The notes under the pieces: generated by a model
Databases searched by the model: none
What the model was told of the DNA's origin: nothing
Seen by the model: the letters and a program-made list of their open reading frames with translations, nothing else
Assembly: GCF_014200015.1 (NCBI RefSeq)
Contig: NZ_JACHOT010000004.1
Span: 1 to 64,000, forward strand
Reading direction: 5' to 3'
Source: Aminobacter niigataensis
GTDB lineage: Bacteria > Pseudomonadota > Alphaproteobacteria > Rhizobiales > Rhizobiaceae
DNA: 64,000 nucleotides
Translations under genes and position numbers: made by a program
Shown: positions 32,732-52,225 of the stretch, one piece after another
Numbering within the stretch: position 1 is the stretch's first letter
Layout of the letters: each line of letters begins with the position of its first letter

Positions 32732-33916
<1,185 letters not shown>

Positions 33917-33927
33917 GAGCGGGTCCG

Positions 33928-34385
<458 letters not shown>

Positions 34386-34389
<4 letters not shown>

Positions 34390-36186: not shown

Positions 36187-36292
36187 TCCTGCGACAACAT
36201 TTATTTTGCCATGACGCTTAGGCGTGGTGCCGTCTCGCGTGTCTATGATAGCAAGATGGTTGGGGTGCCCGTAGCAAACGGGCACGTGCTGC

Positions 36293-37264
36293 GTGACTGG
36301 CATGGGCAAAGGGCAAGAACGATCCGAGATCGACCGAGGCGTCGCACTTGATGCGCGTGACTGGATCGTTCGGCTGACCGCCGGCAATCTCAGCCGGCAG
36401 GAGCTCGACCGGTTCCACGCCTGGCGCGCGCAGTCGCCGGAACATGCGCAGGCATTCGCCCGCGAGAAGGAATTCTGGCAGCTTCTGCAAGGCGTGAACG
36501 ACGGCAACCCGCCCGTTGCCGTGCCGAAGCTGCGCCGACCCGTCAACCGACGCTCGTTCCTTGTCGGCGGCGCCCTTGCCGCCTCGGTTGCAGCTGTCGC
36601 CGCGCCGCGTGTCATCACATGGATGCGTTCGGACTTTGCCACCAGCTCGGGCGAGCAGGCGACGACCACCCTGCCCGACGGCTCGACGATGTTCCTCAAC
36701 ACCAACAGTTCCGTTGCCGTCGATTTCCAGCGTGGCCGACGCCTGGTGAACCTGCTCGCCGGCGAGGCGGAATTCGCCGTCAAGCCGGCCGCCGGCGTGC
36801 CGTTCAGCGTCTCGGCGCTTGGCGGCAGCAGCGATGCGGATAGCGGTGTCTATGCGGTGCGCTCGATCGCCGGCGAGGTCACGATCACCGCATCGACGGG
36901 AACCGTTTCGGTGACCGGCGGAGATGCCGGCGCTGCCGCCAACTTGGTGTCGCTCGCCCCCGGACAGCAGACCCGCTACCTGAGCGGCGGCGCACCCAAG
37001 CCTGCTTCGGATGTCGACCTCGACACAGAGCTCGCCTGGCGCACCGGTCGTGTGGTGTTCGACGCCCGGCCGTTCAGCAGTGCCGTCGCCGAGCTCGGCC
37101 GCTACGTTTCCGAACGGCTGGTCGTTGCCACCCATGCGCACGATGCGAGCCCGATCACGGCCGTGTTCCTGACACGCGACGCCCATGCGGCGATCGAGGC
37201 CCTGGCACATACCCAGGGGCTTTCGGTGCGCAGGGTTCCCGGTGTCGTCATCGTCATTTCCTGA
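36293..37264 (+). CDS. FecR-like anti-sigma/sensor protein
   Basis: This 323-residue FecR family protein has an N-terminal cytoplasmic sigma-binding part with the paired-Trp pattern ARDWIVRLTAG and FHAWRAQSPEH. A single twin-Arg/membrane segment (RRSFLVGGALAASVAAVAAP) comes next. The periplasmic FecR domain then reads TTTLPDGSTMFLNTNSSVAV, with GEAEFAV further on. The last about 60 residues resemble an STN-like fold. The start is GTG 36293 or ATG 36302. It should sense substrate loading of the receptor encoded next, through that receptor's STN domain. Confidence 0.9.
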   Translation: MTGMGKGQERSEIDRGVALDARDWIVRLTAGNLSRQELDRFHAWRAQSPEHAQAFAREKEFWQLLQGVNDGNPPVAVPKLRRPVNRRSFLVGGALAASVAAVAAPRVITWMRSDFATSSGEQATTTLPDGSTMFLNTNSSVAVDFQRGRRLVNLLAGEAEFAVKPAAGVPFSVSALGGSSDADSGVYAVRSIAGEVTITASTGTVSVTGGDAGAAANLVSLAPGQQTRYLSGGAPKPASDVDLDTELAWRTGRVVFDARPFSSAVAELGRYVSERLVVATHAHDASPITAVFLTRDAHAAIEALAHTQGLSVRRVPGVVIVIS

Positions 37265-37392
37265 CCCTGACGAACTCGCGCCAACTTATTTCAGAAAAAA
37301 TGCAGACAGCTCTTTAGGCGGCGGGCCCCGTCGCGCGTCACACCATCGAAGGCGCTCGGTGGATGGGTGCGCCACGCTTTTTGGGGACCAGC

Positions 37393-39696
37393 ATGACGGG
37401 CGAGAGCAACAGGGATTTTGGCGGCGCGGCGTCGGGGCGCCTGCTGAGGCGGCTTCTGGTGGGAACGGCGCTGGGCGCAGGCGTGCTGGTGACGTCCGTG
37501 CCATACGCTCCCGCCCATGCGCAGTCGGCGCAGATGCACAACATCAACCTGCCGGCGCAGCCGCTGGCGCAGTCGCTGAAGCAGCTTGCTGCGCAGACCG
37601 GCCTGCAGATCGCCTTCGGCACCGCCGACATCGGCTCGGCCCGCGCGCCCGCGGTCTCAGGCAACATCTCGGCCGAACAGGCGCTCGGCAGCGTGCTTTC
37701 CGGCAGCGGCCTGAACTACCGCTTCACAGGCCCCAACACGGTGTCGATCCAATCGGCGGCGGCAAGCGCTTCGACAGGTGGGCTCAACGTCGCGGCCAAC
37801 GGCGCGGTCGTCTTGAACACGATCGACGTCAACGCCCAGGGCGGCGAAGGCGGGGTCAATAACGTCCAGATCACAGCGCAAGACCTGGCGCGGAAGAACC
37901 CTGTCGACCTGCAGGAAGTGTTTGCCGACGAGCCGAAGGTTGCCGTCGGCAGCTCCCTGCCAATGTCGCAGAAAGTCTATGTCCAGGGCATCGAGGAAAC
38001 CAACCTCGCGGTGACCGTCGATGGCGCGCGGCAGAACAACAAGGTGTTCCACCACAACGCGACCAACCTGATCGATCCATCGCTGCTCAAGGCCGTCAGC
38101 GTCGACGCCGGCGTTGCACCGGCCGATGCCGGACCGGGTGCGCTCGGCGGCGCGATCGCCTACGAGACAAAGGATGCGCGCGACCTGCTCGAGCCGGGCA
38201 AGAGCATCGGCGGGCTCGTCACCGGAACCTACGACTTCAACAGCAAGACCTCCACGGTGGGCCTGTCGGCCTATGGCATGGAAGGCGGCTTCGAATATTT
38301 CGGCTACCTGAACTTTGCCAAGGGCGACAACTTCACCGCCGGCAATGGCAGCGTCATCGACGGCACCAGCGCCAACCTGCTGAGCGGTCTCGGCAAGGTT
38401 GCCTACCAGGCGGAAAGCGGCCATCGCTTCGAGCTGAGCCACGAGCAGCTGCGCGACGACGCTCCGCGGCCGTTCCGTGCGAACATGGGCAAGCTCGTTC
38501 CCCCAAAACCCTGGGAACCAGATATTCGCGACTACACGCTCGACCGCAGCAGCACCGTCTTCACCTATACCGATGAGTCGCCCGAGGGCTGGTGGGATCC
38601 GAAAGTGGTGATCGCCTATACGAGCGCTCGGGTGGAGACGCTCATCTACCCGAGACCAGTAGCGCCGAGCACCGAGTCGGATACCTATACCGGTGTCGGC
38701 AAGACCGAGAGCTTCAACGGCAAGGCGGAAAATCGTTTCGCGCTCGACATGGGCAGCATCACCGCCGGCTTCGATTTCTACAAGGACACCGCCGATCTCG
38801 ACGACAAGTTCGAACCCGGAACAGAGCATGCAAGCAATGTCGGTCTCTACGCCCAGGCCCGGCTGGAGCCATGGGAGCGGACACGGCTTTCCTTTGGCGC
38901 GCGCGGCGACAACCAGTGGTTCGAGGGGGTCTCGGGCGAGAACTGGACCAATGCCGGACTGAGCGGCAACATCTCCGGCGAATACGACCTCGTACCCGAT
39001 TTCCTGACCGCCAAGGCAGGCTATTCGCATGTCTGGGCCGGCGTGCCGCTGGCGGAAAACTTCAACTTCAATCCGAACTGGGACTATGGCGCCGGGCCGA
39101 AGCCGGTAACCTCGGACAACTTCACCGCCGGACTGGTCGCTACCTATCAGGGCTTCACGCTCGAGGGCGGCATTTTCCGCACAGACATCTACGACGCCCG
39201 CGCCGCCCTCTACAAGACCACGGCCATCGAGGCCCATGATGTCCGTTCCCAGGGTTTCACGCTCGGCGCCGGCTACGACTGGGGTTCGGGCCACGCCAGG
39301 ATCAAATACGTCAACATCGACGTCACCATCGATGGCGACCCGGCGGATTCCTACCTCGGCAACTACCTGGTGACGCCAGTCGGCCAGATCTTCACACTGG
39401 CGGCAATGCACCGTTTCGACGACTGGGGCGTGACGGTCGGCGGCGACGTCGAGATCGCCCTCGATTACGACAAGGTGCCAGCCGGATCGAAGCAGATCGA
39501 GGGGCACGAGGTGGTCAACGTCTTCGTCGAGTACCAGCCGCCATCGAAACCGAACCTGACTTTCCGCGGCGAGGTGAAGAACCTGTTCGACGAGGACTAC
39601 GCCAGCAGGGCGACCTATGGCCAGGAATTCGGCGACGTCAAACCGCTGCTGGAGCCGGGGCGGTCGTTCCGCCTGAGCGCAACCGCAAAGTTCTGA
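37393..39696 (+). CDS. TonB-dependent outer membrane receptor with STN signalling domain (candidate ferric-petrobactin receptor)
   Basis: This 767-residue receptor has a signal peptide ending APAHAQS. An STN domain at residues about 45-125 (LPAQPLAQSLKQLAAQTGLQ) is typical of receptors that signal to FecR/FecI. The plug has VDLQEVFADEPKVAVGSS, then VYVQGIEETNLAVTVDGARQ, the pattern of the hemoglobin/transferrin/heme receptor class and not of classical siderophore receptors. The barrel ends in NLFDEDYASRATYGQE and SATAKF. I start at ATG 37393 (GGGGACCAGC upstream). The place between FecIR and the asb operon argues for the siderophore as ligand; heme remains the alternative. Confidence 0.85.
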   Translation: MTGESNRDFGGAASGRLLRRLLVGTALGAGVLVTSVPYAPAHAQSAQMHNINLPAQPLAQSLKQLAAQTGLQIAFGTADIGSARAPAVSGNISAEQALGSVLSGSGLNYRFTGPNTVSIQSAAASASTGGLNVAANGAVVLNTIDVNAQGGEGGVNNVQITAQDLARKNPVDLQEVFADEPKVAVGSSLPMSQKVYVQGIEETNLAVTVDGARQNNKVFHHNATNLIDPSLLKAVSVDAGVAPADAGPGALGGAIAYETKDARDLLEPGKSIGGLVTGTYDFNSKTSTVGLSAYGMEGGFEYFGYLNFAKGDNFTAGNGSVIDGTSANLLSGLGKVAYQAESGHRFELSHEQLRDDAPRPFRANMGKLVPPKPWEPDIRDYTLDRSSTVFTYTDESPEGWWDPKVVIAYTSARVETLIYPRPVAPSTESDTYTGVGKTESFNGKAENRFALDMGSITAGFDFYKDTADLDDKFEPGTEHASNVGLYAQARLEPWERTRLSFGARGDNQWFEGVSGENWTNAGLSGNISGEYDLVPDFLTAKAGYSHVWAGVPLAENFNFNPNWDYGAGPKPVTSDNFTAGLVATYQGFTLEGGIFRTDIYDARAALYKTTAIEAHDVRSQGFTLGAGYDWGSGHARIKYVNIDVTIDGDPADSYLGNYLVTPVGQIFTLAAMHRFDDWGVTVGGDVEIALDYDKVPAGSKQIEGHEVVNVFVEYQPPSKPNLTFRGEVKNLFDEDYASRATYGQEFGDVKPLLEPGRSFRLSATAKF

Positions 39697-39700
39697 ACCC

Positions 39701-39729
39701 GGTGGCCACGGGCCTTGTCCGTGGCCACC
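39701..39729 (+). terminator. strong hairpin between receptor and DUF2218 gene
   Basis: An 11-bp perfect stem GGTGGCCACGG / CCGTGGCCACC with a 7-base loop starts 5 bp after the receptor stop. There is no T tract (CCCGTTTGAAA follows). It may act as an mRNA-stabilising end or partial terminator that sets receptor expression above that of the synthesis genes. Confidence 0.5.
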
Positions 39730-39765
39730 CCCGTTTGAAATCAACGACGGACAGGGAACGAAACC

Positions 39766-40050
39766 ATGGTTCAATCGTCGGGCACGTTCGAAACCGAACA
39801 TGGCGCCAAGTACCTGACCCAGCTGTGCAAGCACTTCGCCCACAAGATCGAGGTGTCCCATGGCGATGGGCATGGCGAATGCCATTTCCCGTTCGGCCAT
39901 GCGGTTCTGGAAGCCGACGGCACCGCGCTGACGATCCGGCTGGACGCGCCCGACGCCGACCAGCTGGCGCGAACCAAGGCAGTCATCGACGACCATCTCG
40001 CCCGCTTCGCCTTCCGCGAGCCCGAGCGTGCCATCCAGTGGAGTGCCTAA
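39766..40050 (+). CDS. DUF2218 family protein
   Basis: This is a 94-residue cytosolic protein. The pattern GTFETEHGAKYLTQLCKHFAH near the start and the hydrophobic ALTIRLDAPDADQLARTKAV identify the DUF2218 family, whose members often sit beside siderophore or heme receptor genes. The function is unknown. It contains a His-rich stretch (HGDGHGECHFPFGH, residues about 32-45) that could bind metal. It sits between the receptor and the first NIS synthetase gene on the same strand. Confidence 0.85.
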   Translation: MVQSSGTFETEHGAKYLTQLCKHFAHKIEVSHGDGHGECHFPFGHAVLEADGTALTIRLDAPDADQLARTKAVIDDHLARFAFREPERAIQWSA

Positions 40051-40139
40051 GGCCAGCCAGCCTTCGTTCTCCGATAAAATCCGTCAGATACCTAGCTGCT
40101 GCAAGGCATTCGGTCGGTCCAACCACATGGTGACGACAG

Positions 40140-41921
40140 ATGAAGCCCACGCCGCGGCAGGTTGCCGAACACGCGACATTCCAGAATTTCGCGAACTGCT
40201 ATGTCCGTGAAATCTCGCCCGGCAGGGTGAGCCAGCACCGGAGCGGCGCGGAGGATCCTGTCGACTGCATCGAGTGGGTTCTGGCAGCCCAGCAACTCGT
40301 GCTGCGCGCCGAGTTGGCGTCGCATTCCCGGTGCGGGCCGCACCGTTTCGGGCAGGCCTGGGTCCGCCGGGCGGCCGACGCCGGCTGGCGCCACAGCGAA
40401 CCGTTCGCCGCACTGCAGCTGCTGCTTCACGAAGCCTACAGGCAATTGCACGACGAACGCAGCGACGCGATGCGCGGCTGCGAACTCGAACTGCTTGGCC
40501 GGGCGCTGCAAAGCTACCAACAGACGCTGCGCTACATCGAAGCACATCATGCCAACGCGGACGACGACAGCTTCATCGCGGCAGAACAGTCGCTGGTGTT
40601 CGGCCACTCGCTGCACCCGACGCCGAAGAGCCGGCAAGGCATGACTTCGTGGCAGGAACCGAGCTATGCGCCCGAACTGCACGGCAGGTTCCAGCTCGTC
40701 TACTTCGCCGCGGATGCCTCTATCGTCAGCCACAAGTCGGCAGCCGCCGAGACCGCGCCGGAGATTATCGCGTCGCTGGCAGGCCCCGAGGGGCTCGAAA
40801 CGCGGCCCGGCGAGATGCTGCTGCCGATGCACCCGCTGCAGGCCGAAGCGCTGCTGCTCGATGTCGGCGTCCGCGAACTGCAGGCAGCCGGCAAGCTGAG
40901 ACTGGTCGGTCCCGCCGGCCCGGCTTTCACGGCCACGTCTTCGGTCCGCACGGTCTACAATCAAGACCTGCCATGGATGCTCAAATTCTCGCTGCCGGTC
41001 CGCATCACCAATTCGCTCAGGGTCAACAGCCGCAAGGAACTGGAGGCCGGGGTCGCCATGGCCAAGCTGCTCAAGCGCACCGGCATCGGCAGCGAAGATG
41101 GCCGCTTCAAGGTGATCGCCGACCCGGCCTACATCACCTTCGATCTGCCCGGCCGCAGCGAAAGCGGCTTCGAGGTGATCCTGCGCGAAAACCCGTTCGT
41201 CGCCTGCAAGGGACGCGGCAAGATCACCATCGCAGCACTCACCGCCGAGCCGCTGCCGGGCGAGCAGTCACGACTGGAGCGGATCATCCGGGCTTTGTGC
41301 CTGCGCGACGGGACGCATCCGGAGCTGGTCTGCAAGCACTGGTTCCAGCGCTACCTCGACTGCGCGCTCGACCCGCTGGTTTCGCTCTACGACGACTTCG
41401 GCCTGGCGCTCGAGGCGCACCAGCAGAACAGCCTGCTCGACGTCAGCCAGGGCTATCCCAGCGCCAGCTACTATCGCGACAACCAGGGTTTTTATCTCTC
41501 CAAGCGCTACCGCGCCCGCTTCAGCCTGCATGTGCCGGAGGCGGCCGAGATCGCCTCGCTCTACTATGACGACCGCGACATCCAGGATCGCTTTGCCTAC
41601 TACCTGATCGTCAACCAGATCTTCTCGGTCGTCGCCCGCATGGGACATGACGGCCTGATCGACGAGGAGGTCCTGCTGCGCTTGCTGCGGGACCGGCTGG
41701 AGGTGTTGTCGCGGACGACCAGCGCGGTCGGGCGCGAATTCGTCCGCGGCGTGCTCGACCGCCCGACCGTGGCCTTCAAAGCCAACCTGATGACCCGGCT
41801 GTTCGACGTCGACGAGTTGCAGACCAGCAACGAGCGCTCGCTTTACGCCCGCCAGCCCAACCCGCTCTTCGCCGCCATAACCGGCCTCTACCACGGAGAT
41901 GGCAGTGCCCTTGCCTCTTGA
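40140..41921 (+). CDS. asbA: NIS siderophore synthetase, AsbA-like (spermidine-citrate ligase candidate)
   Basis: This 593-residue IucA/IucC family synthetase adenylates a citrate carboxylate and condenses it with an amine. Family motifs are GHSLHPTPKSRQGM, LLPMHPLQAEALLL and WMLKFSLPVRITNSLRV, followed by the FhuF-like C-terminal domain (EAHQQNSLLDVSQGYPSASY). AsbA of Bacillus anthracis couples spermidine to citrate as the first dedicated step of petrobactin synthesis. Assignment as AsbA rather than another NIS type rests on its being first in an operon with the complete asbB-F set. The ATG at 40140 has only a weak GGTGA upstream. It overlaps the next synthetase gene by 23 bp. Confidence 0.82.
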   Translation: MKPTPRQVAEHATFQNFANCYVREISPGRVSQHRSGAEDPVDCIEWVLAAQQLVLRAELASHSRCGPHRFGQAWVRRAADAGWRHSEPFAALQLLLHEAYRQLHDERSDAMRGCELELLGRALQSYQQTLRYIEAHHANADDDSFIAAEQSLVFGHSLHPTPKSRQGMTSWQEPSYAPELHGRFQLVYFAADASIVSHKSAAAETAPEIIASLAGPEGLETRPGEMLLPMHPLQAEALLLDVGVRELQAAGKLRLVGPAGPAFTATSSVRTVYNQDLPWMLKFSLPVRITNSLRVNSRKELEAGVAMAKLLKRTGIGSEDGRFKVIADPAYITFDLPGRSESGFEVILRENPFVACKGRGKITIAALTAEPLPGEQSRLERIIRALCLRDGTHPELVCKHWFQRYLDCALDPLVSLYDDFGLALEAHQQNSLLDVSQGYPSASYYRDNQGFYLSKRYRARFSLHVPEAAEIASLYYDDRDIQDRFAYYLIVNQIFSVVARMGHDGLIDEEVLLRLLRDRLEVLSRTTSAVGREFVRGVLDRPTVAFKANLMTRLFDVDELQTSNERSLYARQPNPLFAAITGLYHGDGSALAS

Positions 41922-43617
41922 CCTGCCAGGCCGCCCCGACGAGCGCGTCATCAGGCAACTGGTCGAGGCCGTGCTGTTCGAAGAGCTTGTCGCGGCAACG
42001 ATCGCCGACGACGGCGACCAGCTTGCCTTCTCGTGGTCGCATGAGGGCAAGCGCTTTCGCTGCGCCGGCGTTGAAGGTGCGTTCAGCCGCATCCGGATCG
42101 CGCCGGGTTCGGTCGAGAGCGAAGATAGCGATGGCACCTGGCGCCCGGCTGCGCTGGACGAGTTGGTCGCCAGCTTGCCGGCATCCGCAGACGACAAGTG
42201 CCGGCTGCTCGGCGAGCTGCAGAGCACGCTCGCCCACTGCAGCTGGAACGACCGCAACCTGCGGCACGGCTCGCGCCGCGATCTCGGCTTCGCCGCGCTC
42301 GAGAGCGCGCTGCACGAAGGCCATGCGTACCATCCCTGCTTCAAGGCGCGGACGGGTTTCAGCGAAAGCGACCACCGCGACTTCGGCCCCGAAGCGGGTA
42401 GCAGCTTCCAGCTCGCCTGGCTGCTGGTGCGGCGCGAAGAGGTAAGCCAGCGCCTGCCAGCAGACGAAGCCGCCTTCTGGACCGCCGAGCTCGGCGCAGA
42501 AGGCTTTGCCCAGATCGATCGGCGGCGGGCGGAGCTTGGCCTGAGCTGGGACGAGTTCGCGCTGGTGCCGCTGCATCCGTGGCAGTGGACGGCGCTCAAG
42601 GACACGCTGCTTGTGCCTTGGCTGACAGACGAAACGGCCCGTTTCGTCGGCACCGTGGGCGACCGTTACACGGCGAGCCAGTCGATCCGAACGCTGCTCA
42701 ATGCGGATCGACCCGATGCGGCGAACGTCAAGCTGTCGATGAACATGAGCAACTCGTCGTCGCTGCGTACGATCGAGCCGCATTCGGTGTGCACGGCGCC
42801 GGTGATATCGCGCTGGCTGGGCGACATAGTCGCCGGCGACCGGCTGTTCCAGACTGACTATCCGCTGACCGTGCTCGACGAATATGCCGGCATCATCGCC
42901 GGCCGCGACGGGAAGCTCGCCGGCCAGCTTGCCGCGATCTGGCGCCGCAGCGTCACCTCGCTACTGGTTGAAGGCGAACAAGCGGTGCCGTTCAACGCGC
43001 TGATGGCGATCGAGCACGACGGCAAGCCGTTCATCGACGAGTGGGTCCGCCGCCACGGCTTCCGTGCCTGGCTCGGGCAGCTGCTGCAGGTCGCCATCTT
43101 GCCGGTGTGGCACCTGCTGGTCGGGCACGGCATCGCCACCGAGGCGCACGGCCAGAACATGGTGCTCGTCCACCGCGACGGCTGGCCGGTCCGGCTGGTG
43201 CTGCGCGACTTCCACGACAGCGTCGAATACGTGCCCGACTTCCTGCGCGAGCCTGGCAAGGCGCCCGACTTCCTGGCGCTCGACCCAGCCTATCGGACGG
43301 CGCTTCCTGACCAGTACTACTGGATGGGGGACGTCGAGACGCTCGGCGAGCTGGTGACGGACGCGCTGTTCATCTTCAACCTGGCAGAGATTTCGCACCT
43401 GCTGCAGACCCATTACGGACTGCGCGAAGCCGACTTCTGGAAAACGGTCCGGCAGATGCTGTCCGACTACGCCGCCAGCCACGGCCTGACCGCGCGGCAG
43501 GCCCAGCTCGGTCTCGCCCGACCCGAGATCGTCGCCGAAGCGCTGCTTGCCCGCAAGCTCAACACCGGCCGTTCGAGCCACGTCGTTTCCAACACCCTTT
43601 CCACCCCCGACGCCTGA
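41899..43617 (+). CDS. asbB: NIS siderophore synthetase, AsbB-like
   Basis: This 572-residue second IucA/IucC synthetase has HAYHPCFKARTGFSESDHRD, LVPLHPWQWTALK, KLSMNMSNSSSLRTI and the C-terminal AEISHLLQTHYGL. In petrobactin assembly AsbB adds the second spermidine, or its dihydroxybenzoyl derivative, to the citrate centre. The ATG at 41899 abuts a GGAG, so a GTG at 41905 (GGAGATGGCA before it) may be the true start. The overlap with asbA implies translational coupling. The shorter N-terminus, compared with about 600 residues in Bacillus, is within family range. Confidence 0.82.
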   Translation: MAVPLPLDLPGRPDERVIRQLVEAVLFEELVAATIADDGDQLAFSWSHEGKRFRCAGVEGAFSRIRIAPGSVESEDSDGTWRPAALDELVASLPASADDKCRLLGELQSTLAHCSWNDRNLRHGSRRDLGFAALESALHEGHAYHPCFKARTGFSESDHRDFGPEAGSSFQLAWLLVRREEVSQRLPADEAAFWTAELGAEGFAQIDRRRAELGLSWDEFALVPLHPWQWTALKDTLLVPWLTDETARFVGTVGDRYTASQSIRTLLNADRPDAANVKLSMNMSNSSSLRTIEPHSVCTAPVISRWLGDIVAGDRLFQTDYPLTVLDEYAGIIAGRDGKLAGQLAAIWRRSVTSLLVEGEQAVPFNALMAIEHDGKPFIDEWVRRHGFRAWLGQLLQVAILPVWHLLVGHGIATEAHGQNMVLVHRDGWPVRLVLRDFHDSVEYVPDFLREPGKAPDFLALDPAYRTALPDQYYWMGDVETLGELVTDALFIFNLAEISHLLQTHYGLREADFWKTVRQMLSDYAASHGLTARQAQLGLARPEIVAEALLARKLNTGRSSHVVSNTLSTPDA

Positions 43618-43628
43618 AGGGAAAATCG

Positions 43629-44900
43629 ATGCTCCAGATCGACGACAGGTACTATGACCGACAGAAGTTCGAGCAATTGGTAGCGGAGAACGCCGACAAG
43701 GCCGGCCTCGAGGCGAATGCGTGCTATGCGGTCTGCTTCAGCGATACCGCCGGCTGGCTGGCGCTGTTCTTCGCCATCCGCAACATCGGCGCCAGCGTCT
43801 TCCCTATCCATCCGGCAACGCCGCACGCCGCGGCGCGCCGGCTGGCCGTCGCCGCAGGCTGCCATGCGCTGTACTTCAACAGTCTCGAAGCGGAGACGCT
43901 GTCGACCGAGATCGAGCCGGCTTCGCAGGGCCAGCTGCTGCAGATGAGCTCCGGCACCACAGGCGCGCCGAAATGCATCGCCCGCGGCTGGGCCGAGATC
44001 GACGCCGAGGTGGCGAGCTATGTCACGACATTCCGCCAGCCCGAGGAGATGACGCCGGTCATCGCCTGCCCGACAACCCATTCCTACGGTTTGATCTGCG
44101 GCATACTGGTGGCGCACAAGCGCGGTCGCACGCCCGTCGTCGTCGACGCCGGCAATCCGAAGTACCTGCTGCGGACGTTGCGCGACATCAAGCGGCCATT
44201 GCTCTACTCGTCACCTGCAGTGCTGCACACGCTGGCGCGCCTGATGCCCGAAGGCGAGAAGCTGCACGCGGCGATGACATCGGGCACGGTGCTGCCCGAG
44301 CCATGGTTCGCGCGCATCCGGGCCCACACAACACATCTGTTCCAGCAATATGGCTGCTCTGAAACGGGCTGCATCGCAGTCAATCCCAACGTCACCGACG
44401 CCGCCGACATGGGCTTCGTGCTGCCGCATCACAGCGTCGCCTGCAGCAACAACGCGGTGGCACCGTCCGAAGTGATCGTCAGCGGCCCCAACGGTGAGGT
44501 TGCCACCCGCGACCTCGGCTATTTCAGGCCCGACGGCATGCTGGTGTTCGTCTCCCGGCTCGACGACACCATCAACGTTTCCGGCCTCAACGTCTATCCC
44601 AGGGAAGTCGAGGACGTGGTGATGTCGATGCCCGCCGTCACCGACGCTGTCGCCTTCCGCAAGGCGGACACCCTGGCGGGCGAGCGGGTCGGCCTGCTGT
44701 TCAGCGCCAGCGAACGGCTGGACGGTCCAACCGTGCGGCAATGGTGCGCCCAGAACCTCGCCAGCCACCAGCTGCCGATGGAAATCGTCCAGGTCGATGC
44801 GATCCCGCGCCAGGCCAACGGCAAGATCAGCCGCCGCGAGGTGGCGGCGCAGCATGCCGCGGGACAGTTCACGGCATCGGCCGCGGAGGTTGCAGCATGA
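43629..44900 (+). CDS. asbC: 3,4-dihydroxybenzoate-AMP ligase, AsbC-like
   Basis: This 423-residue ANL-superfamily ligase has the P-loop MSSGTTGAPKCIARG (A3), QQYGCSETGC (A5), ATRDLGYFRPDG (A7), VSRLDDTINVSGLNVYPREV (A8) and the A10 lysine in PRQANGKISRREV. In the petrobactin pathway AsbC activates 3,4-dihydroxybenzoate and loads it onto the AsbD carrier. It is shorter than the typical 500+ residues of aryl-AMP ligases, as AsbC is. The start follows GAAGGGAAAATCG, and its stop overlaps the next ATG. Confidence 0.85.
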   Translation: MLQIDDRYYDRQKFEQLVAENADKAGLEANACYAVCFSDTAGWLALFFAIRNIGASVFPIHPATPHAAARRLAVAAGCHALYFNSLEAETLSTEIEPASQGQLLQMSSGTTGAPKCIARGWAEIDAEVASYVTTFRQPEEMTPVIACPTTHSYGLICGILVAHKRGRTPVVVDAGNPKYLLRTLRDIKRPLLYSSPAVLHTLARLMPEGEKLHAAMTSGTVLPEPWFARIRAHTTHLFQQYGCSETGCIAVNPNVTDAADMGFVLPHHSVACSNNAVAPSEVIVSGPNGEVATRDLGYFRPDGMLVFVSRLDDTINVSGLNVYPREVEDVVMSMPAVTDAVAFRKADTLAGERVGLLFSASERLDGPTVRQWCAQNLASHQLPMEIVQVDAIPRQANGKISRREVAAQHAAGQFTASAAEVAA

Positions 44901-46198
44901 ACACCGAACAGGTCATCGAAGCGATCGGCACCGTGCTGCGCGATCATATGAACCATGCCCATCTCGACCGCTTCGGACCCGAGGCGCGGCTCAACGAAGA
45001 CCTCTATCTCGACTCGGTGCTGATCCTCGAGATCTTCCTCAGCCTCGAGCTGGAATTCGGCCTGCCGGCACCGGAGGAGGCGATCAACCGCCAGGACATC
45101 GAGACGGTGTGGGAACTGGCGCAGCTGTTCACCGGCGATGCCAGCGTCGCTGCCGCGCGTCCCGAGCCGGCCGGCGAGGGCGTGCACGGCGAGGACTACA
45201 TCGACATCAAGGTACACTGCTTCGTCAGCAGCGTCTGCGACGCGCTGAAACGCTCGGGGATCGACCAGCGGCCGTTCTATTTCAGCGTCTGGGACGCCGG
45301 CTTCGCCATCAACGAGCGCTGGCAGCTGGCCTATCACGACAAGTCGATCAACCACGACTTCTTCCGCGTCTGGTATGAGCGGATCTACGGCGTGACCATG
45401 CATGAATGGTACGACCCGGAACGGTCGAAGGACCAGAACATCGTCACCATGCTCGATCTGCTCGAGCGCAAGCGCGACAGCGAATATCTGATGGTGATGC
45501 TCGACCTGTTCCACCTGCCGGAGCGGGAGAACAAGTTCAACCAGAACCCGTTCCCGCACTATCTGATGATCGAAAAGACCGGCGATCCGAAGATCTGGCA
45601 GGTCAACGACCCCGACTTCCGCTGGGAAGGCCAGATCGCCCGCGACAAGGTCATCCACGCCATCCGCCAGCCGACCGTCGGCGGCGGCTACATCTTCGAT
45701 CGGCTGGAGGCGCAGAAACCCGCCGCCGCCGACTTGCGCGACTTCTTCCTCGCCTGCTACCGGCCCGACCACAATCCGCTGGTCGACGGCGTGCGTCGCA
45801 TCGTTACCGCCCATCTCGAAGGCCGAGACGGGGCGGAGCTCGCCGATCTCGGCGCAGCACTTCGCGAGGTGCCCGTCATCTCGATCCGCAAATACGCCTA
45901 CGAGCACGGCTTCGCCTTTTTCTGGCGCGAGATGAAGCTGGCCAATGCAGACTTCGACCACTGGTGCGACGAGATCGAGCGGGTGATCCAGGACTTCAAG
46001 GCGCTGCACTATGCCGTCATGAAGCTGGCCCAGACCGGCGACCGCAGCCTGGCCGACGACGTCTTCCGCCGCCTCGACACGCTGGACGGTCTGGAGAAGC
46101 GGATCAAGGCCCAGCTTGGCGAGGCCTTCGAGGCTTGGTGCGCGACAAAGGGCATCCCGCACACAATTCCCGCCGAACTACCGGGAGCAGCCGAATGA
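44897..46198 (+). CDS. asbDE: aryl carrier protein fused to AsbE-type transferase (AsbD-AsbE)
   Basis: This 433-residue protein corresponds to two separate Bacillus proteins. Residues 1 to about 82 are an acyl/aryl carrier domain with the phosphopantetheine serine at Ser40 in LYLDSVLILEIFLSLE. Residues about 98-433 (from EDYIDIKVHCFVSSVCDALK) match the AsbE-like condensing enzyme, with FYFSVWDAGFAINERWQL and NPFPHYLMIEK. AsbD carries 3,4-dihydroxybenzoyl thioester and AsbE transfers it to spermidine amines. A Pro/Ala/Glu-rich linker joins the domains. The ribosome binding site GGAGG lies 11 bases ahead, and the start overlaps the asbC stop. Confidence 0.83.
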   Translation: MNTEQVIEAIGTVLRDHMNHAHLDRFGPEARLNEDLYLDSVLILEIFLSLELEFGLPAPEEAINRQDIETVWELAQLFTGDASVAAARPEPAGEGVHGEDYIDIKVHCFVSSVCDALKRSGIDQRPFYFSVWDAGFAINERWQLAYHDKSINHDFFRVWYERIYGVTMHEWYDPERSKDQNIVTMLDLLERKRDSEYLMVMLDLFHLPERENKFNQNPFPHYLMIEKTGDPKIWQVNDPDFRWEGQIARDKVIHAIRQPTVGGGYIFDRLEAQKPAAADLRDFFLACYRPDHNPLVDGVRRIVTAHLEGRDGAELADLGAALREVPVISIRKYAYEHGFAFFWREMKLANADFDHWCDEIERVIQDFKALHYAVMKLAQTGDRSLADDVFRRLDTLDGLEKRIKAQLGEAFEAWCATKGIPHTIPAELPGAAE

Positions 46199-47040
46199 AG
46201 ATCTCGCTCTGCACCATCACCTTCCGCCACCATCTCGCTTCGCTCGAGGACATCGCCAGGTGGGCCCGCGCTAACGACTTCCAGGGCATCGAGATGTGGG
46301 GCGTGCATGCCCGCAACCTCGCCTACCAGCCGCATCGCGACGCCGACTGGCTTGCCGAGCTCGGGCTCTATGTGCCGATGGTGAGCGACTACCTGCCGCT
46401 CGACGGCGATGCAGAGGCGCTGCGAAAGAAGACCGTCGACCTGTGCCGCCTCGCCCGGCACTGGCGGGCCGGCAAGATCCGCACCTTTGCCGGCAGCCGC
46501 GGCAGCCGCGACACGCCCGCCGACGTCAGGCGCATCATCACCGCACGACTGCGCGAGATGTCGGAGATCGCGGCCGATTTCGACCTCGACCTGCTGGCCG
46601 AAACGCATCCGGGCACGCTTGCGGACTGCGGCTCGTCGACGCTCCGGCTGGTTGCCGAGGTCGACCACCCGGCATTCAAGCTCAATTTCGACACGCTGCA
46701 TGTCTGGGAGGGCGGGGACGACCCGGTCGCCGCCCATGCCGCGATGCGGCCGCACATCCGCCACTACCACCTCAAGAACGTGCGCTCGCGCGCCGACCTC
46801 CGGGTGTTCGAACCAGCCAATGTCTATGCCGCTGCCGGAAGCCGCGAAGGCATGACGCCGCTGTTCGACGGCAAGGTCGACTATCAGCGCTTCCTCGGCC
46901 AGCTGCGCGACGACCCGGCGGTCGAAGCCTCGCTCGAATGGTTCGGCAACGATTGCTTCAATGTCCTGCGCAGCGACCGACAGGCAATAAAGCGCCTCAG
47001 AAGTCGGGATGAAGTCTTGTTGCGCACCGGTAGCTTCTGA
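46195..47040 (+). CDS. asbF: 3-dehydroshikimate dehydratase AsbF
   Basis: This 281-residue TIM barrel enzyme converts 3-dehydroshikimate to 3,4-dihydroxybenzoate (protocatechuate), the petrobactin catechol. It closely follows Bacillus AsbF: SLCTITFRHHLAS, IRTFAGSRGSRDTPADVR, AETHPGTLADC, NFDTLHVWEGG, HYHLKN, VFEPANVYAAAGSREGMTPL and ASLEWFG. All metal ligands of AsbF are present (Glu in AETHP, Asp and His in FDTLH, His in HYHLKN, Glu in LEWFG). Among sugar-isomerase-like TIM barrels this set of motifs is specific. Its ATG overlaps the preceding stop. This is the strongest single piece of evidence for the petrobactin assignment. Confidence 0.92.
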   Translation: MKISLCTITFRHHLASLEDIARWARANDFQGIEMWGVHARNLAYQPHRDADWLAELGLYVPMVSDYLPLDGDAEALRKKTVDLCRLARHWRAGKIRTFAGSRGSRDTPADVRRIITARLREMSEIAADFDLDLLAETHPGTLADCGSSTLRLVAEVDHPAFKLNFDTLHVWEGGDDPVAAHAAMRPHIRHYHLKNVRSRADLRVFEPANVYAAAGSREGMTPLFDGKVDYQRFLGQLRDDPAVEASLEWFGNDCFNVLRSDRQAIKRLRSRDEVLLRTGSF

Positions 47041-47112
47041 TATGTGCCAAAGAAGAGTATTTTGCGAAGGTTTTATGAACCCGACGCCGACGGCACAAGA
47101 CGGAGACACGAG

Positions 47113-48018
47113 ATGAAGTATGTTCGGCTGCTGGCCAACCTTGCAGCTGCGCTGGCGATCGCCACCGCACCTGCCATGGCCGTGGAAATCACCACCGCGA
47201 CCGGACAGAAGACCATCGACAAGGTGCCGGCCAAGGTCGCTGTCTACGACATCGCCGCGATCGACACCCTGACCCGACTCGGCGTCCAGCCGGCAGGCGT
47301 CCCCGACAAGCTGTTCGTGCCCGAACTGGCCGATGTCGCCAAGGGCGCCACGGTCGTCGGCACCCTGTTCGAGCCGGATCTCGAGGCATTGAACGCGCTT
47401 GCGCCCGATCTGGTGATCGTCGGCGGCCGTTCGTCGACTCAGGTCGAGGCGACGTCGCGCGTTGCGCCGACCATCGACATGACCATGGCTGGAGACGATC
47501 TCGTGGCCCAGGCCAAGGCGCGCCTCGCCGCCTATGGCGACCTCTTCGCCAAGCCCGACGAGGCCGCCGCCGCCGCCAAGGAGCTGGACGCCGCCGTCGA
47601 AGCCGCCAGGCAGGCCGTCAAGGGCAAAGGCAAGGCGCTGATCCTGATGACCAACGGCCCGAAGATCACCGCCTACGGCCCGGGTTCGCGCTTCGGCTGG
47701 GTGCACAAGACGCTCGACCTCGAGCCGGCCGTCGCCGATGTCGAGACGGCGACCCATGGCGAGGCGATCTCGTTCGAATTCATCAGCAAGGCCAACCCGG
47801 ACTGGCTGCTCGTGCTCGACCGCGCCGCGGCCATCGGCTCGGGCGACCAGGGCGCCAAGGCCACGCTCGACAACGAACTGGTGGCGCAGACGACCGCCTG
47901 GAAGAAGGGGCAGGTGATCTTCCTGCCGTCGCCCGACTTCTACATCGCCGCCGGCGGCGTACAGTCGACGCACCGCGTCCTTTCGACCATAGAACAAGCT
48001 TTCGCCAAGGCGAAGTGA
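47113..48018 (+). CDS. periplasmic ferric-siderophore binding protein (YclQ/FatB-like)
   Basis: This 301-residue substrate-binding protein has a cleavable signal peptide (LLANLAAALAIATAPAMA) without a lipobox, as expected in a Gram-negative. It shows the helical-backbone class patterns KVAVYDIAAIDTLTRLGV, LFEPDLEALNALAPDLVIVG and the conserved TAYGPGSRFGWVHKTLDL. The family includes the petrobactin binders YclQ and FatB of Bacillus. The start at 47113 follows CGGAGACACGAG. It lies 72 bp after asbF and is translationally coupled to the permease genes that follow. Confidence 0.88.
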   Translation: MKYVRLLANLAAALAIATAPAMAVEITTATGQKTIDKVPAKVAVYDIAAIDTLTRLGVQPAGVPDKLFVPELADVAKGATVVGTLFEPDLEALNALAPDLVIVGGRSSTQVEATSRVAPTIDMTMAGDDLVAQAKARLAAYGDLFAKPDEAAAAAKELDAAVEAARQAVKGKGKALILMTNGPKITAYGPGSRFGWVHKTLDLEPAVADVETATHGEAISFEFISKANPDWLLVLDRAAAIGSGDQGAKATLDNELVAQTTAWKKGQVIFLPSPDFYIAAGGVQSTHRVLSTIEQAFAKAK

Positions 48019-48983
48019 TGGCCGCGGCAGTGCCCAACGCCCAGCTGGTGGTCGCCACCAGCCTCGTCGGGCTGTTTGCGCTGAGCCTGTGCATCGGCGT
48101 CGACGACCTGTCGCTGGACAGGATCGCAACCGGTGCAGGGGCGCTGGAACTTCTGCTCGTCAGCCGCCTGCCGAGGACGGTGGCCGTGGTGCTCACCGGC
48201 GCGGGACTGGCCATTGCCGGGCTCGTGCTGCAGATACTGGTTCGCAACCGCTTCGTCGAACCCATCACCACCGGCACGGGCCAAAGTGCCGCCCTCGGCG
48301 TGCTCGCGGTGACGCTGCTGTTTCCAACAGCATCGATCGGGGCGAAGACCCTCGCGGCGAGTGCGACCGCGCTGGCCGGCACGTCGATCTTCCTTGGCAT
48401 CGCCCACCGGCTGCCGCCGACGCAGCCATTCCTCATCCCGCTGTTCGGCCTCGTTTATGGCGGCGTCATCGGGGCTGCGGTAACCTTCATCGCCTGGCAG
48501 ACCGACCTGCTGCAATATGTCGACGTCTGGACCAACGGCGAATTCTCCGGCGTCCTGCGCGGCCGCTACGAGCTCTTGTGGATCACAGCGGTAATGGTGG
48601 CGCTGGCCTGGTGGGTGGCCGACCGGCTGACCATCGCCGCGATGGGCCGCGAGGTCAGCGTCGGGCTCGGCCTCAACTACCAGCGCATCGTGCAGTTCGG
48701 CCTCGTCATGGTGGCAGTGATTTCGTCGCTCGCCGTCGTGGTCGTCGGCATGATCCCGTTTGTCGGGCTGGTGGTGCCGAACCTCGTCTCCCGCCTGATG
48801 GGCGACAATTTGAAAAGCGCCCTGCCCTGGGTGGCGGTCACCGGCGCAACGCTGCTGCTGGCCTGCGACATCATCGGCCGCCTCATCCGCTACCCCTATG
48901 AAATTCCCGTCGGCACCGTGCTCGGCGTCGTCGGCTCGGGGCTGTTCCTGTGGATCCTGTTCGGGCGGGCCCAGCGTGCCTGA
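48018..48983 (+). CDS. FecCD-family ferric-siderophore permease 1 (YclN/FatD-like)
   Basis: This 321-residue inner membrane permease has LLVSRLPRTVAVVLTGAGLA, GLVLQILVRNRFVEPITTGT and MIPFVGLVVPNLVSRLMGDN, which are the FecCD hallmarks. The ATG at 48018 overlaps the binding-protein stop (TGATG). It overlaps the second permease by 8 bp. It would form a heterodimeric channel with that protein. Confidence 0.9.
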   Translation: MAAAVPNAQLVVATSLVGLFALSLCIGVDDLSLDRIATGAGALELLLVSRLPRTVAVVLTGAGLAIAGLVLQILVRNRFVEPITTGTGQSAALGVLAVTLLFPTASIGAKTLAASATALAGTSIFLGIAHRLPPTQPFLIPLFGLVYGGVIGAAVTFIAWQTDLLQYVDVWTNGEFSGVLRGRYELLWITAVMVALAWWVADRLTIAAMGREVSVGLGLNYQRIVQFGLVMVAVISSLAVVVVGMIPFVGLVVPNLVSRLMGDNLKSALPWVAVTGATLLLACDIIGRLIRYPYEIPVGTVLGVVGSGLFLWILFGRAQRA

Positions 48984-49917
48984 CAAGCGGCTTCTGATCC
49001 TCGCCGCCGTGGCGCTGGCCGTGGCGGCCGCCTTCATGACCGTCGGCTTGCGCGGCAATATCGGCTTTGCGCTCGAACTGCGCGCGGTACGCCTGCTAAC
49101 GCTGATACAGGTCGGCGTGGCGATCGCGATCTCGACCGTGGTGTTCCAGACAGTGACGGCGAACCGGGTGCTGACGCCGCAGATCATGGGGCTGGACGCG
49201 CTCTACCTGTTCGGCCAGATGGCGCTGGTGCTGACGCTCGGCAGCGTCGGCTATGTCGCGCTCGACCCGCGGCTGAAATTCGCCGGCGAGTCGGTGCTGA
49301 TGATGGCGATGGCGCTGATGCTGTTCCTGCCTATGCTGCGCCGGCGCTTCGACATCGGGCTGCTGCTTCTCACCGGCGTGGTGCTCGGCGTGCTGTTCCG
49401 CAGCCTCGCCATGCTGGTGGCGCGGGTAATCGACCCCAACGAATTCGCCGTCGTCCAGGGTTCGAGCTTCGCCGATTTCAACACCGTGCGGCCGGATCTG
49501 GTCGCCATCGGCCTGGTCGTGACGATTGTCGCCGGTGCCATCATCTGGCGGCTGCGCCACATGCTCGACATCGTCGCCCTTGGCGCCGACAGCGCCACAG
49601 GTCTCGGCGTCGACTGGACCCGGGCACTCGCCGGCCTGCTGCTGCTGGTCGCAGCACTGGTGGCGGTATCGACGGCGCTGGTCGGACCGGTGACGTTCTT
49701 CGGGCTGCTGGTCGTGGCGCTTGCCGAGCGCATCATCGACAGCCGGCGGCACCGGCTGCTGCTGCCGGCGGCGATGCTGACGGCGATCATCGTGCTGCTC
49801 GGCGGCCAGATGGTACTTCAGCACATGCTGGGGGGTGCGGCCACGCTCGGCGTCGTCATCGAATTCGTGGGAGGCCTCGTGTTCCTGGCCATGCTGATCA
49901 CAACGAGCAAGCGATGA
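48976..49917 (+). CDS. FecCD-family ferric-siderophore permease 2 (YclO/FatC-like)
   Basis: This 313-residue permease starts at a GTG (48976) that overlaps the end of permease 1. Family segments are IAISTVVFQTVTANRVLTPQ, IMGLDALYLFGQ, GADSATGLGVDWTR, and GPVTFFGLLVVALAERI near the end. The YclO/FatC half is typically the one with the NRVLTPQIMGLDALY pattern, which fits the petrobactin/anguibactin transporter branch. Its stop overlaps the ATPase start. Confidence 0.9.
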   Translation: MPDKRLLILAAVALAVAAAFMTVGLRGNIGFALELRAVRLLTLIQVGVAIAISTVVFQTVTANRVLTPQIMGLDALYLFGQMALVLTLGSVGYVALDPRLKFAGESVLMMAMALMLFLPMLRRRFDIGLLLLTGVVLGVLFRSLAMLVARVIDPNEFAVVQGSSFADFNTVRPDLVAIGLVVTIVAGAIIWRLRHMLDIVALGADSATGLGVDWTRALAGLLLLVAALVAVSTALVGPVTFFGLLVVALAERIIDSRRHRLLLPAAMLTAIIVLLGGQMVLQHMLGGAATLGVVIEFVGGLVFLAMLITTSKR

Positions 49918-50672
49918 TCGAGATCAAGAATATTTCGCTGCGCCTCGGCGACACGCAAATCCTGGAGGATGTGTCGCTGACCATGCCGAAGGGCGGACTG
50001 ACGGCGCTCGTCGGGCCGAACGGCGCCGGCAAGTCGAGCCTGCTGTCGCTCATCGCCCGGCTGCAGCCGCTGCAAAGCGGGTCCATCTCCGTTGACGGCC
50101 TACCGGTGGACACGACGCCGAGCCGCCGACTGGCGAAGACGCTCGCCATCCTGCGCCAGGACCCCGCCGTGGCGAGCCGGCTCAAGGTGCGCGAACTCGT
50201 CGGCTTCGGCCGCTTCCCGCATCAGCGCGGCCGCATCGACGACAACGACCTGAGGCTGATCGAGGCGGCGTTGCAGCAGTTCGGTCTGACCGATCTTGCC
50301 GACCGCTTCCTCGACCATTTGTCGGGCGGCCAGCGTCAGCGCGCCATGGTCGCCATGGCCTTCTGCCAGGGCACCGACTACATGCTGCTCGACGAACCGC
50401 TGAACAATCTCGACATGCTGTTTGCCCGCCAGCTGATGCGCGACCTGCGCGCCGCCGCCGACAAGGACAAGCGCACGGTCATCGTTGTTCTGCACGACAT
50501 CAACCACGCCGCCGTCTATGCCGACCGCATCGTGGCAATGAAGGCCGGGCGCATCGTCGCCGACGGCGCCCCGGCCGAGGTGCTGCAGCCCGACGTGCTG
50601 GCCCAGGTCTTCGGCTATGACATGGACGTCATCGACGTCGGCGGCGCACCGCTAGTGCTGCACCACCGCTAG
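49914..50672 (+). CDS. ferric-siderophore ABC transporter ATP-binding protein (YclP/FatE-like)
   Basis: This 252-residue ATPase has Walker A GPNGAGKSS, signature HLSGGQRQRA, Walker B YMLLDEPLNNLDM and switch VLHDINHA. It completes the binding protein-permease-permease-ATPase set for inner membrane ferric-siderophore import and is the last gene of the iron island. It converges with the aldehyde dehydrogenase gene. Confidence 0.93.
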   Translation: MIEIKNISLRLGDTQILEDVSLTMPKGGLTALVGPNGAGKSSLLSLIARLQPLQSGSISVDGLPVDTTPSRRLAKTLAILRQDPAVASRLKVRELVGFGRFPHQRGRIDDNDLRLIEAALQQFGLTDLADRFLDHLSGGQRQRAMVAMAFCQGTDYMLLDEPLNNLDMLFARQLMRDLRAAADKDKRTVIVVLHDINHAAVYADRIVAMKAGRIVADGAPAEVLQPDVLAQVFGYDMDVIDVGGAPLVLHHR

Positions 50673-50739: not shown

Positions 50740-52221
50740 TTAAAACGGATAGGCCGGCGGTGTGTTGCGGATGGTCAGCCACTGCCACTGGGTGAACTCG
50801 TCGATGTTGCTGGGACCGCCGATGCTGGTGCCGTTGCCCGAGGCGCCGACGCCGCCGAACGGGTTGATGACCTCGTCGTTGACCGTCTGGTCGTTGATGT
50901 GCAGCAGGCCGGCGCGCAGCCTGTCGCCGATGGCCATGGCGCGGCCGATGTCGGGCGAGATCACTGCGGCGGACAGGCCGTATTCCGTGCGGTTGGCGAG
51001 TTCCACCGCCTCGTCGTCGCCGCTGAAGGAGGTGATGCAGGCGACAGGGCCGAATATCTCCTCCTCGAAAGCAGCCATGCCAGGCTTGACGCCGGCGAGC
51101 ACGGACGGCGCGTAGAACAGCTTGTCATAGGTGCCGCCTGCCATCAGTCGGGCACCTTGATCGACCGAGGTTTTCACCACCCGGTCGATGTGATCGAGTT
51201 GCGCCTTGTTGATGATGGGGCCGAGCGCGACGTTGTCCGTCGCCGGATTGCCGACAGGCAGGCTCTTCGCCTTCCGTGCCAGCGCCTCGGTGAAAGCCTC
51301 CAGGATCGGCGCCTCGACCAGGATGCGGCCGGACGACATGCAGATCTGGCCCTGGTGCAACCAGGCGCCCCAGGCGGCATTCTTCACCGCCAGCTCGAGG
51401 TCCGCGTCCTTGAGGATGACGAGCGTGTTCTTGCCGCCGAGCTCCAGCGACACCTTCTTGAGATGCCGGCTGGCGTTTTCGCCGACAATGCGGCCTGCCT
51501 TGGTCGAACCGGTGAACTGGATCATCGCGATGTTCGGATCGGCGACCAGCGCGGCACCCGCGTCGCCGGCGCCCGGCAGCACGTGGATGAGGCCTTCCGG
51601 CAGGCCGGCCTTTTCGAACAGCGTGGCAAAGACCAGCCCGCCGCAGACCGCCGTGCGCGGATCTGGCTTGAGCACAACCGCATTGCCCACGGCGAGCGAC
51701 GGCGCGACGGCCCGCATGGCGAGATAGAGCGGGAAGTTGAACGGCGAGATGACGCCGACGACGCCGAGCGGACGGCGGCGGGCGAGGTTCATCCGGCCGG
51801 CTTCCGACGGCAGCACGAGACCTTGCGGCTGCGAGGCGAGTGCGGCGGCTTCGTTCAGCGCCTTGATGCTGAGTTGCGTCTCGAACTCCGCCTTGCCGCG
51901 CGCCGAACCGCTCTCGCGGATCAGCCATTCGACCACGTCGCCGAAATGCAGCTCGAGCATGCCGGCGGCCTTGCGGATGACCGCCGCCCGCGTGTCGTAG
52001 CTTGCCGCTGCCCAATCGCGCTGTGCCTTGGCCGCCGACGCCGACGCCAGTGTCACGTCTGCCGGGGATGCCATGCCGATGCGGCCAAGCACGGAACCTG
52101 TCGCAGGCTCGATGATGTCGGCGGCTTGCGTCGTGCGCTTCCAGCCGCCCGAATAAATGGTCCCGTCGAGATGGTCGCCGCGGATCAACTTCAGCTCCTG
52201 GGAAGAGACTGCCTTGTTCAT
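50740..52221 (-). CDS. aldehyde dehydrogenase, benzaldehyde/vanillin dehydrogenase-like
   Basis: This 493-residue NAD(P)+-dependent aldehyde dehydrogenase has the cofactor-binding ISPFNFPLYLAMRAVAPSLA, the catalytic Glu in SLELGGKNT and the catalytic Cys in HQGQICMSSGR. The C-terminal INPFGGVGASG pattern is also present. The overall type matches aromatic aldehyde dehydrogenases, which would supply benzoate from benzaldehyde. I start at the ATG ending at 52221 (AGGAGTGACAAG upstream); the frame is open to 52359, but those residues overlap the preceding pcaD gene. It is the last gene of the ben/cat/liv run, 4 bp after pcaD. Confidence 0.87.
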   Translation of the reverse strand: MNKAVSSQELKLIRGDHLDGTIYSGGWKRTTQAADIIEPATGSVLGRIGMASPADVTLASASAAKAQRDWAAASYDTRAAVIRKAAGMLELHFGDVVEWLIRESGSARGKAEFETQLSIKALNEAAALASQPQGLVLPSEAGRMNLARRRPLGVVGVISPFNFPLYLAMRAVAPSLAVGNAVVLKPDPRTAVCGGLVFATLFEKAGLPEGLIHVLPGAGDAGAALVADPNIAMIQFTGSTKAGRIVGENASRHLKKVSLELGGKNTLVILKDADLELAVKNAAWGAWLHQGQICMSSGRILVEAPILEAFTEALARKAKSLPVGNPATDNVALGPIINKAQLDHIDRVVKTSVDQGARLMAGGTYDKLFYAPSVLAGVKPGMAAFEEEIFGPVACITSFSGDDEAVELANRTEYGLSAAVISPDIGRAMAIGDRLRAGLLHINDQTVNDEVINPFGGVGASGNGTSIGGPSNIDEFTQWQWLTIRNTPPAYPF

Positions 52222-52225
52222 CTTG

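Follow-up and report, generated by a model that had tools for sequence, protein, structure and literature searches.

Petrobactin-type siderophore loci have already been described in the rhizobia. In Sinorhizobium fredii CCBAU45436 the gene order fprA-c14010-asbABCDEF-fatBDCE, accompanied by FecIR, was reported, and the same order was given for Aminobacter aminovorans KCTC 2477 in a study that counted Asb in 245 alphaproteobacterial genomes (PMC8822346); from its position, c14010 is presumably the DUF2218 gene. In an S. fredii rirA mutant, overproduction of the siderophore was found to depend on asbA, fecI and rseP and, for the most part, on fprA and the Ton genes; it was largely undone by suppressor mutations in asbA, fprA, fecI, tonB and exbB, and the operon was described as repressed by RirA (PMC8822346). 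The same functions and gene order are found in Bacillus asbABCDEF (PMC8822346). The locus considered here lies in a window (the whole stretch of DNA analysed, 64,000 nucleotides) from Aminobacter niigataensis, positions 1 to 64,000 of contig NZ_JACHOT010000004.1, which is contig 4 of a 5.28 Mb host genome rated 100% complete. Judged from its sequence, it is a complete Asb and Fat locus of the petrobactin type, to which FecIR and a TonB-dependent receptor belong, and as such it is one more genome of a published kind, real and ordinary. The best explanation of the data is a self-contained, iron-regulated siderophore locus whose product is probably unacetylated bis-homospermidine petrobactin, C36H54N6O11.

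From fecI to fatE (35674-50672, + strand), the list of open reading frames (ORFs) together with Pfam and NCBIfam scans showed every ORF to be intact and on one strand, with stops and starts overlapping by 4-23 bases at asbA/asbB, asbC/asbDE, asbDE/asbF, fatB/fatD and fatC/fatE, an arrangement as in one operon. Chance or artefact as the source of the gene calls was rejected, the core families scoring far above their Pfam cut-offs. The initial annotation of this DNA had proposed a petrobactin-type locus in an alphaproteobacterium of the rhizobial order, with two IucA/IucC synthetases, an aryl-AMP ligase, an aryl carrier, AsbE, AsbF and an importer in succession, and this gene set and order were confirmed on the + strand. 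The aryl carrier and AsbE are likewise both present, but as one 433-residue ORF (44897-46198, +) and not as the separate genes it had listed, and FecIR and the receptor do precede the biosynthetic genes as it had said, but FecI and FecR lie at 35674-37264, outside a locus taken to open at 37393. Its further view that this is not a standard rhizobial siderophore system had to be given up, the order having been published for both S. fredii and A. aminovorans (PMC8822346).

The two predicted nonribosomal peptide synthetase-independent siderophore (NIS) synthetases, AsbA (40140-41921, +; IucA_IucC 191.5 bits, cut-off 25) and AsbB (41899-43617, +; 211.4 bits, cut-off 25), each carry IucA_IucC and FhuF domains (Pfam) and are 44-94% and 46-89% identical, respectively, to their counterparts in 15 loci compared. 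The best solved relative of AsbB is petrobactin AsbB 3to3 (E 1.7e-94, 320.8 bits), the next relative scoring 158.7 bits. The closest solved relatives of AsbA are IucA 5jm7 and AcsD 2w02, in a match list that contains no AsbA; it is closer to these than to AsbB, as fits the second NIS type. AsbF, a predicted 3-dehydroshikimate dehydratase (46195-47040, +; phmmer to 3dx5 E 7e-73), has AsbF 3dx5 as its sole solved relative at E <= 0.001, with 47% identity over 264 aligned residues, and in the alignment it keeps all of the 3dx5 residues R102, E142, H144, D172, H175, K200, F211, Y217 and E253, a set that we take to include the metal and active site. Both 3to3 and 3dx5 belong to the Bacillus system. 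A grouping of the NIS enzymes and AsbF with other systems, which the initial annotation had named as evidence against its proposal, was looked for in part, and these matches favour the petrobactin type. AsbC, an aryl-AMP ligase (43629-44900, +), scores 543.2 bits with NF006167 (cut-off 513). In AsbDE, the DUF6005 transferase half is recognised by PF19468 (490.6 bits, cut-off 25); the carrier half reaches 60 bits with the AsbD model NF005798 over the N-terminal 78 residues, below the cut-off of 100, and retains the Asp-Ser pair shared by all 8 aligned sequences, which would presumably bear the phosphopantetheine arm.

Compared with the locus of S. fredii USDA 205 (L059), homologues of all 13 window proteins were found in the same order, and the two loci differ in sequence: the Asb proteins are 56-68%, the Fat proteins 63-70%, FecI 25% and FecR 29% identical, and the receptor is 58% identical. 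In the window, exbB-exbD-tonB adjoins the locus. Relative to Bacillus, with its FatBCDE/YclNOPQ importers, asbD and asbE are fused, an outer-membrane receptor, FecIR and DUF2218 are added, and the host polyamine is probably homospermidine. The rhodopetrobactin cluster of Rhodopseudomonas palustris and the methylolanthanin cluster of Methylorubrum extorquens AM1 share the AsbDE fusion, DUF2218 and FecIR with the window (PMC11317620), and homospermidine synthase is present in relatives of both hosts. These two clusters differ in carrying the acetyltransferase MllH, no close form of which was found in the window's genome, and M. extorquens AM1 has an asbBC fusion where asbB and asbC of the window are separate ORFs. 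A plasmid locus of Phaeobacter inhibens DSM 17395 (L016), probably of the roseobactin type (name from PMC11317620, its match to this locus being our own), has the same asbA, asbB, asbC, asbDE and asbF and a Fat-type importer; it differs in identity (Asb 42-55%, Fat 43-58%) and in having the importer on the opposite strand.

The initial annotation had taken the product to be petrobactin itself, made from spermidine and expected at m/z 719. The enzymes are indeed of the petrobactin type; the spermidine is doubtful, because the host genome encodes homospermidine synthase and no route to spermidine was recognised in it. An analogue built on homospermidine, like rhodopetrobactin, is likelier. The synthase, of 481 aa, scores 820.9 bits to PDB 4plp. 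SpeD gave 0 matches in the host genome, and the only match there to the carboxyspermidine decarboxylase NspC, at 28.5 bits, is the diaminopimelate decarboxylase LysA (TIGR01048 489.6 bits, cut-off 297.9). The lone SpeE-like match to spermidine synthase in this genome reached 26.5 bits with Pfam and 23-32 bits with models whose cut-offs are 250-472. For carboxyspermidine dehydrogenase, a saccharopine-dehydrogenase-like protein of 368 aa in the host had no match (E <= 1) to two carboxyspermidine-dehydrogenase-like reference proteins, whose genes are neighbours of genuine NspC genes in two further genomes.

The same genes (SpeD, NspC and homospermidine synthase) were sought in 28 cluster-bearing genomes, namely all 9 DUF6005-positive genomes of the genus and its relatives, host included, and the genomes of 19 loci hand-chosen from the 80 of the main locus search, the completeness of these 19 not being told. 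SpeD was present in none of the 28 and homospermidine synthase in 26; full-length NspC was present in seven (395-411 bits, of which three exceed the curated cut-off). Homospermidine synthase with neither SpeD nor full-length NspC was thus the pattern in 21/28, S. fredii USDA 205 (G103) among them; five genomes had both homospermidine synthase and NspC, and the two with NspC alone were the gammaproteobacteria Oceanimonas and Oceanisphaera. Rhodopseudomonas G112 and Methylorubrum G113, relatives of two experimentally known homospermidine producers (PMC13251462, PMC11317620, PMC7857480), show the host's pattern in that they have homospermidine synthase but neither SpeD nor a full-length NspC, which calibrates the argument for homospermidine in that direction. 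Agrobactin of Agrobacterium tumefaciens contains spermidine (PMC7857480), and the presence of NspC in an A. tumefaciens genome (G119) fits this; S. meliloti is described as making spermidine, unlike most rhizobia (PMC13293326).

Acetylation of the arms was considered through MllH. With the Methylorubrum locus protein as query, the best match in the host genome was 28% identical over the length of the gene, at 31 bits, so that no MllH-like acetyltransferase of the rhodopetrobactin and methylolanthanin clusters was found there above that identity. Close relatives (69-100%) occur in five of the 28 cluster genomes (G093, G111, G112, G113 and G118), and 40-50% matches in eight further ones without the close form, S. 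fredii G103 included. As G118 has two matches, of 78% and 44%, the 40-50% form looks like a separate relative; its occurrence in S. fredii limits the prediction of an unacetylated product to Aminobacter. An unmodified homospermidine arm is therefore the most likely one, given the homospermidine synthase, the lack of a recognised spermidine route and the lack of a close MllH relative. The calculated [M+H]+ is 747.392 for bis-homospermidine petrobactin and 719.361 for petrobactin. For the related rhodopetrobactin B, PMC13251462 prints m/z 831.4228, about 11 ppm from the 831.4135 calculated for C40H58N6O13, a formula derived here.

Several points weigh against reading the locus as a self-contained, iron-regulated source of bis-homospermidine petrobactin. 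Homospermidine synthase makes some spermidine from diaminopropane, and more may be taken up from outside, which makes a product with spermidine or mixed arms conceivable. An exact RirA box as a visible operator was not supported, since no exact match to the published motif TGA-N9-TCA lies in the promoter region of fecI or of the receptor gene. The low identity of FecI and FecR to the S. fredii pair means that control may differ, and none of the eight adjacent proteins scanned (26.8-35.3 kb and 50.7-53.1 kb) was recognised as an exporter, in agreement with what the initial annotation had noted. Authentic petrobactin, its spermidine supplied by the medium or the plant or made by a route that was not recognised, would accord with a gene set and order equal to those of the published 'petrobactin' cluster (PMC8822346) and with the formula C34H50N6O11 given for the S. 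fredii product (PMC12815270). It was nevertheless judged unlikely, as SpeD, NspC, a carboxyspermidine-dehydrogenase-like protein and a convincing SpeE were all not found in a genome rated 100% complete. As regards S. fredii, the main text of PMC8822346 describes the chrome azurol S (CAS) assay and does not contain the terms 'mass spectrometry' or 'LC-MS', and the searched text of PMC12815270 does not contain 'mass spectrometry' or 'UPLC'.

An acetylated rhodopetrobactin, or a methylolanthanin-like lanthanophore built on 4-hydroxybenzoate, would be in keeping with the AsbDE fusion of those clusters (PMC11317620) and with the DUF2218 and FecIR genes held in common, and some other Gcn5-related N-acetyltransferase (GNAT) could acetylate the arms. 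Such a product appears very improbable, however, with no MllH-like match beyond the weak one above and with an Asb tree in which the window groups with Aminobacter and Mesorhizobium, separately from both Methylobacterium/Methylorubrum and Rhodopseudomonas, the latter on a long branch; asbF with its aligned active-site residues kept also speaks against 4-hydroxybenzoate, although the methylolanthanin cluster too has asbF, so that this is not excluding alone. Scarcely any credence was given to a decayed or silent acquisition without a product. The distribution of DUF6005 is indeed patchy (6/10 genomes of the genus, 9/101 relatives and 3/385 genomes sampled across the class, the host counted in each), but all ORFs are intact, mostly with overlapping stops and starts, each of the 13 proteins is 80-98% identical in four Aminobacter loci, except FecR at 73-90%, and a conserved block precedes fecI. 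Bis-homospermidine petrobactin remains the preferred product.

The way in which such a siderophore would be made, recovered and controlled can be outlined from the gene identities, with enzymatic order and control taken from Bacillus Asb biochemistry and from S. fredii genetics. AsbF would convert 3-dehydroshikimate to 3,4-dihydroxybenzoate, which AsbC would activate and load onto the carrier portion of AsbDE; from there the AsbE portion would transfer it to a polyamine arm, and AsbA and AsbB would amidate both outer carboxylates of citrate with such arms. The ferric complex would re-enter through the receptor, energised by TonB-ExbBD, and then through the FatBDCE importer. The receptor gene (37393-39696, +; an alternative start is 37363) encodes an FprA-like TonB-dependent receptor with an N-terminal STN signalling domain, a Plug and a barrel (Pfam); none of the NCBIfam receptor models reaches its cut-off, the best scoring 160 bits, so the ligand is not told by these models. 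The DUF2218 protein, MllG-like (39766-40050, +; PF09981 107.7 bits, cut-off 29.1), is encoded between the receptor gene and asbA; the initial annotation had not listed it. The importer comprises a FatB-like ferric-siderophore binding protein (47113-48018, +; Peripla_BP_2 104.2 bits), whose ORF opens at 47044 with ATG 47113 as the probable start and whose best chain is 8bf6 (E 4e-59; YclQ 3gfv E 5e-46); a FatD-like permease (48015-48983, +; FecCD 206.2 bits); a FatC-like permease (48898-49917, +; FecCD 142.1 bits over residues 58-334), the true start of which is probably further downstream than 48898; and a FatE-like ATPase (49914-50672, +; ABC_tran 111.8 bits), for which the heme and FecE ATPase models give 231 bits, both under cut-off. 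The energiser trio lies directly upstream of fecI with each member above its model's cut-off: exbB (32654-33916, +; TIGR02797 336.5 bits, cut-off 206.2), exbD (33913-34389, +; TIGR02803 206.2 bits, cut-off 152.95) and tonB (34386-35294, +; tonB_Cterm 60 bits, cut-off 27.1; Pfam TonB_C).

The occupied receptor would, by way of its STN domain, signal to FecR and FecI and raise expression of the operon, whose likely iron repressor is RirA. The fecI-like gene (35674-36186, +) encodes an extracytoplasmic function (ECF) sigma factor with Sigma70_r2 and r4_2 domains (TIGR02937 71.8 bits, cut-off 42.9) that scores far below the cut-offs of the models for FecI proper, and it is followed by a fecR-like anti-sigma factor gene (36293-37264, +; Pfam FecR 50.5 bits, cut-off 24). 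The divergence of this pair from its S. fredii counterpart at the same place, set beside the Asb identities, suggests from the sequences that the signalling pair was separately recruited in S. fredii and here. A RirA gene is present in the host genome (276.6 bits, cut-off 193). The window holds 21 copies of the motif TGA-N9-TCA where 10.7 would be expected, those nearest the locus falling inside genes; variation in RirA palindromes has been reported (PMC8822346). Upstream of fecI, the palindromic element ATCAAACACTAAACATGAT (35512-35530, +), a candidate operator or promoter element by its conservation, is identical in the window and four Aminobacter loci and has one difference in Mesorhizobium ephedrae; it belongs to a longer block that is nearly invariant in the window and five loci, although the rest of the intergenic region varies, and no other site in the window matches it when up to 3 mismatches are allowed. 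Another block of conserved sequence, TTTCAGAAAAA...TTTAGGC, precedes the receptor gene and may be the FecI promoter, and by eye no clear promoter motif was common to the regions before fecR and the receptor.

Beyond the neighbouring proteins scanned for an exporter, the window was covered by an ORF list, from 26.8 kb onwards. A recurrent exporter was also sought in related loci: the 1,599 non-core ORFs of 85 loci were clustered, and in the 22 largest families, each judged by eye on the opening 70 residues of a single representative, none was obvious. The largest recurrent family was present in 17 loci, and the recurrent families included an ECF sigma factor, ORFs resembling TonB receptors and ORFs out of frame. 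The exporter gap seems to belong to this kind of locus and not to this window alone. Of two candidates scanned beside related loci, the Neorhizobium ATPase is of the oligopeptide/GsiA importer type, and the one at the Phaeobacter locus L016 is an MsbA-like ATP-binding cassette (ABC) protein.

The wider distribution was drawn from the best 80 of 263 matching stretches in the main locus search, in which loci distant from the query are missing. The closest named relatives of the window are Aminobacter, the A. aganoensis locus being 89-98% identical per protein (AsbDE 93%). In a tree of four concatenated Asb proteins, made by a quick method from 34 rows (the window and 33 of 85 loci chosen for genus spread, without Bacillus or Marinobacter rows and with Phaeobacter as well as Rhodopseudomonas on long branches), the window falls inside Aminobacter, with M. 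ephedrae next. A plasmid labelled Roseateles (UNVERIFIED_ORG; L018, NZ_CP084754.1) groups with Shinella in this tree, and its label may be wrong. The exact order from receptor to fatE was found in 14/86 loci, including L059 of S. fredii and four Aminobacter loci. All 85 loci with asbA, asbB, asbC and asbDE have the DE fusion, a count made with an alignment of fused proteins as query, so that unfused forms may be missed; in 11 of the 85, asbB is fused to asbC. In 20/85 loci no asbF was found within the stretch fetched, which in one case (L096) stops at asbDE. The other 19, with asbA to asbDE and no asbF match in the fetched stretch (L013, L033, L042, L047, L054, L055, L066, L076, L077, L080, L085, L086, L088, L089, L091, L092, L098, L100 and L101), include several Neorhizobium, Rhodopseudomonas infernalis and three Methylobacterium; in these the aryl unit would have to be supplied by genes at another place in the genome, unless it is 4-hydroxybenzoate.

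Genes of other functions flank the locus. On the opposite strand 3' of the importer lie an aldehyde dehydrogenase gene (50740-52359, -) and a gene for the 3-oxoadipate enol-lactonase PcaD (52226-53062, -; 310.8 bits, cut-off 255.9), a protocatechuate-pathway enzyme adjoining a locus that uses protocatechuate. Upstream of exbB, at 26789-31483 (+), is a further uptake set of the iron/B12 type with a BtuB-like receptor, a binding protein, a FecCD permease and what looks by eye like an ABC ATPase, no member of which reaches its NCBIfam cut-off.

The broader proposal, which we consider about evenly balanced, is that the Aminobacter siderophore is an unassigned compound of the petrobactin family, that the siderophores of S. 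fredii and many other hosts are also homospermidine-based, and that the polyamine pathway of the host, not the cluster, sets the backbone. If this is true, the same Asb enzymes in one horizontally moving cluster would give different molecules according to host. Annotation of the gene cluster alone would say petrobactin and may thereby mispredict mass, receptor fit and cross-feeding partners, and the polyamine argument also questions the formula assigned to the S. fredii siderophore in nodule-competition studies. It suggests, furthermore, a simple cross-species rule for the product of a mobile Asb cluster in a given host.

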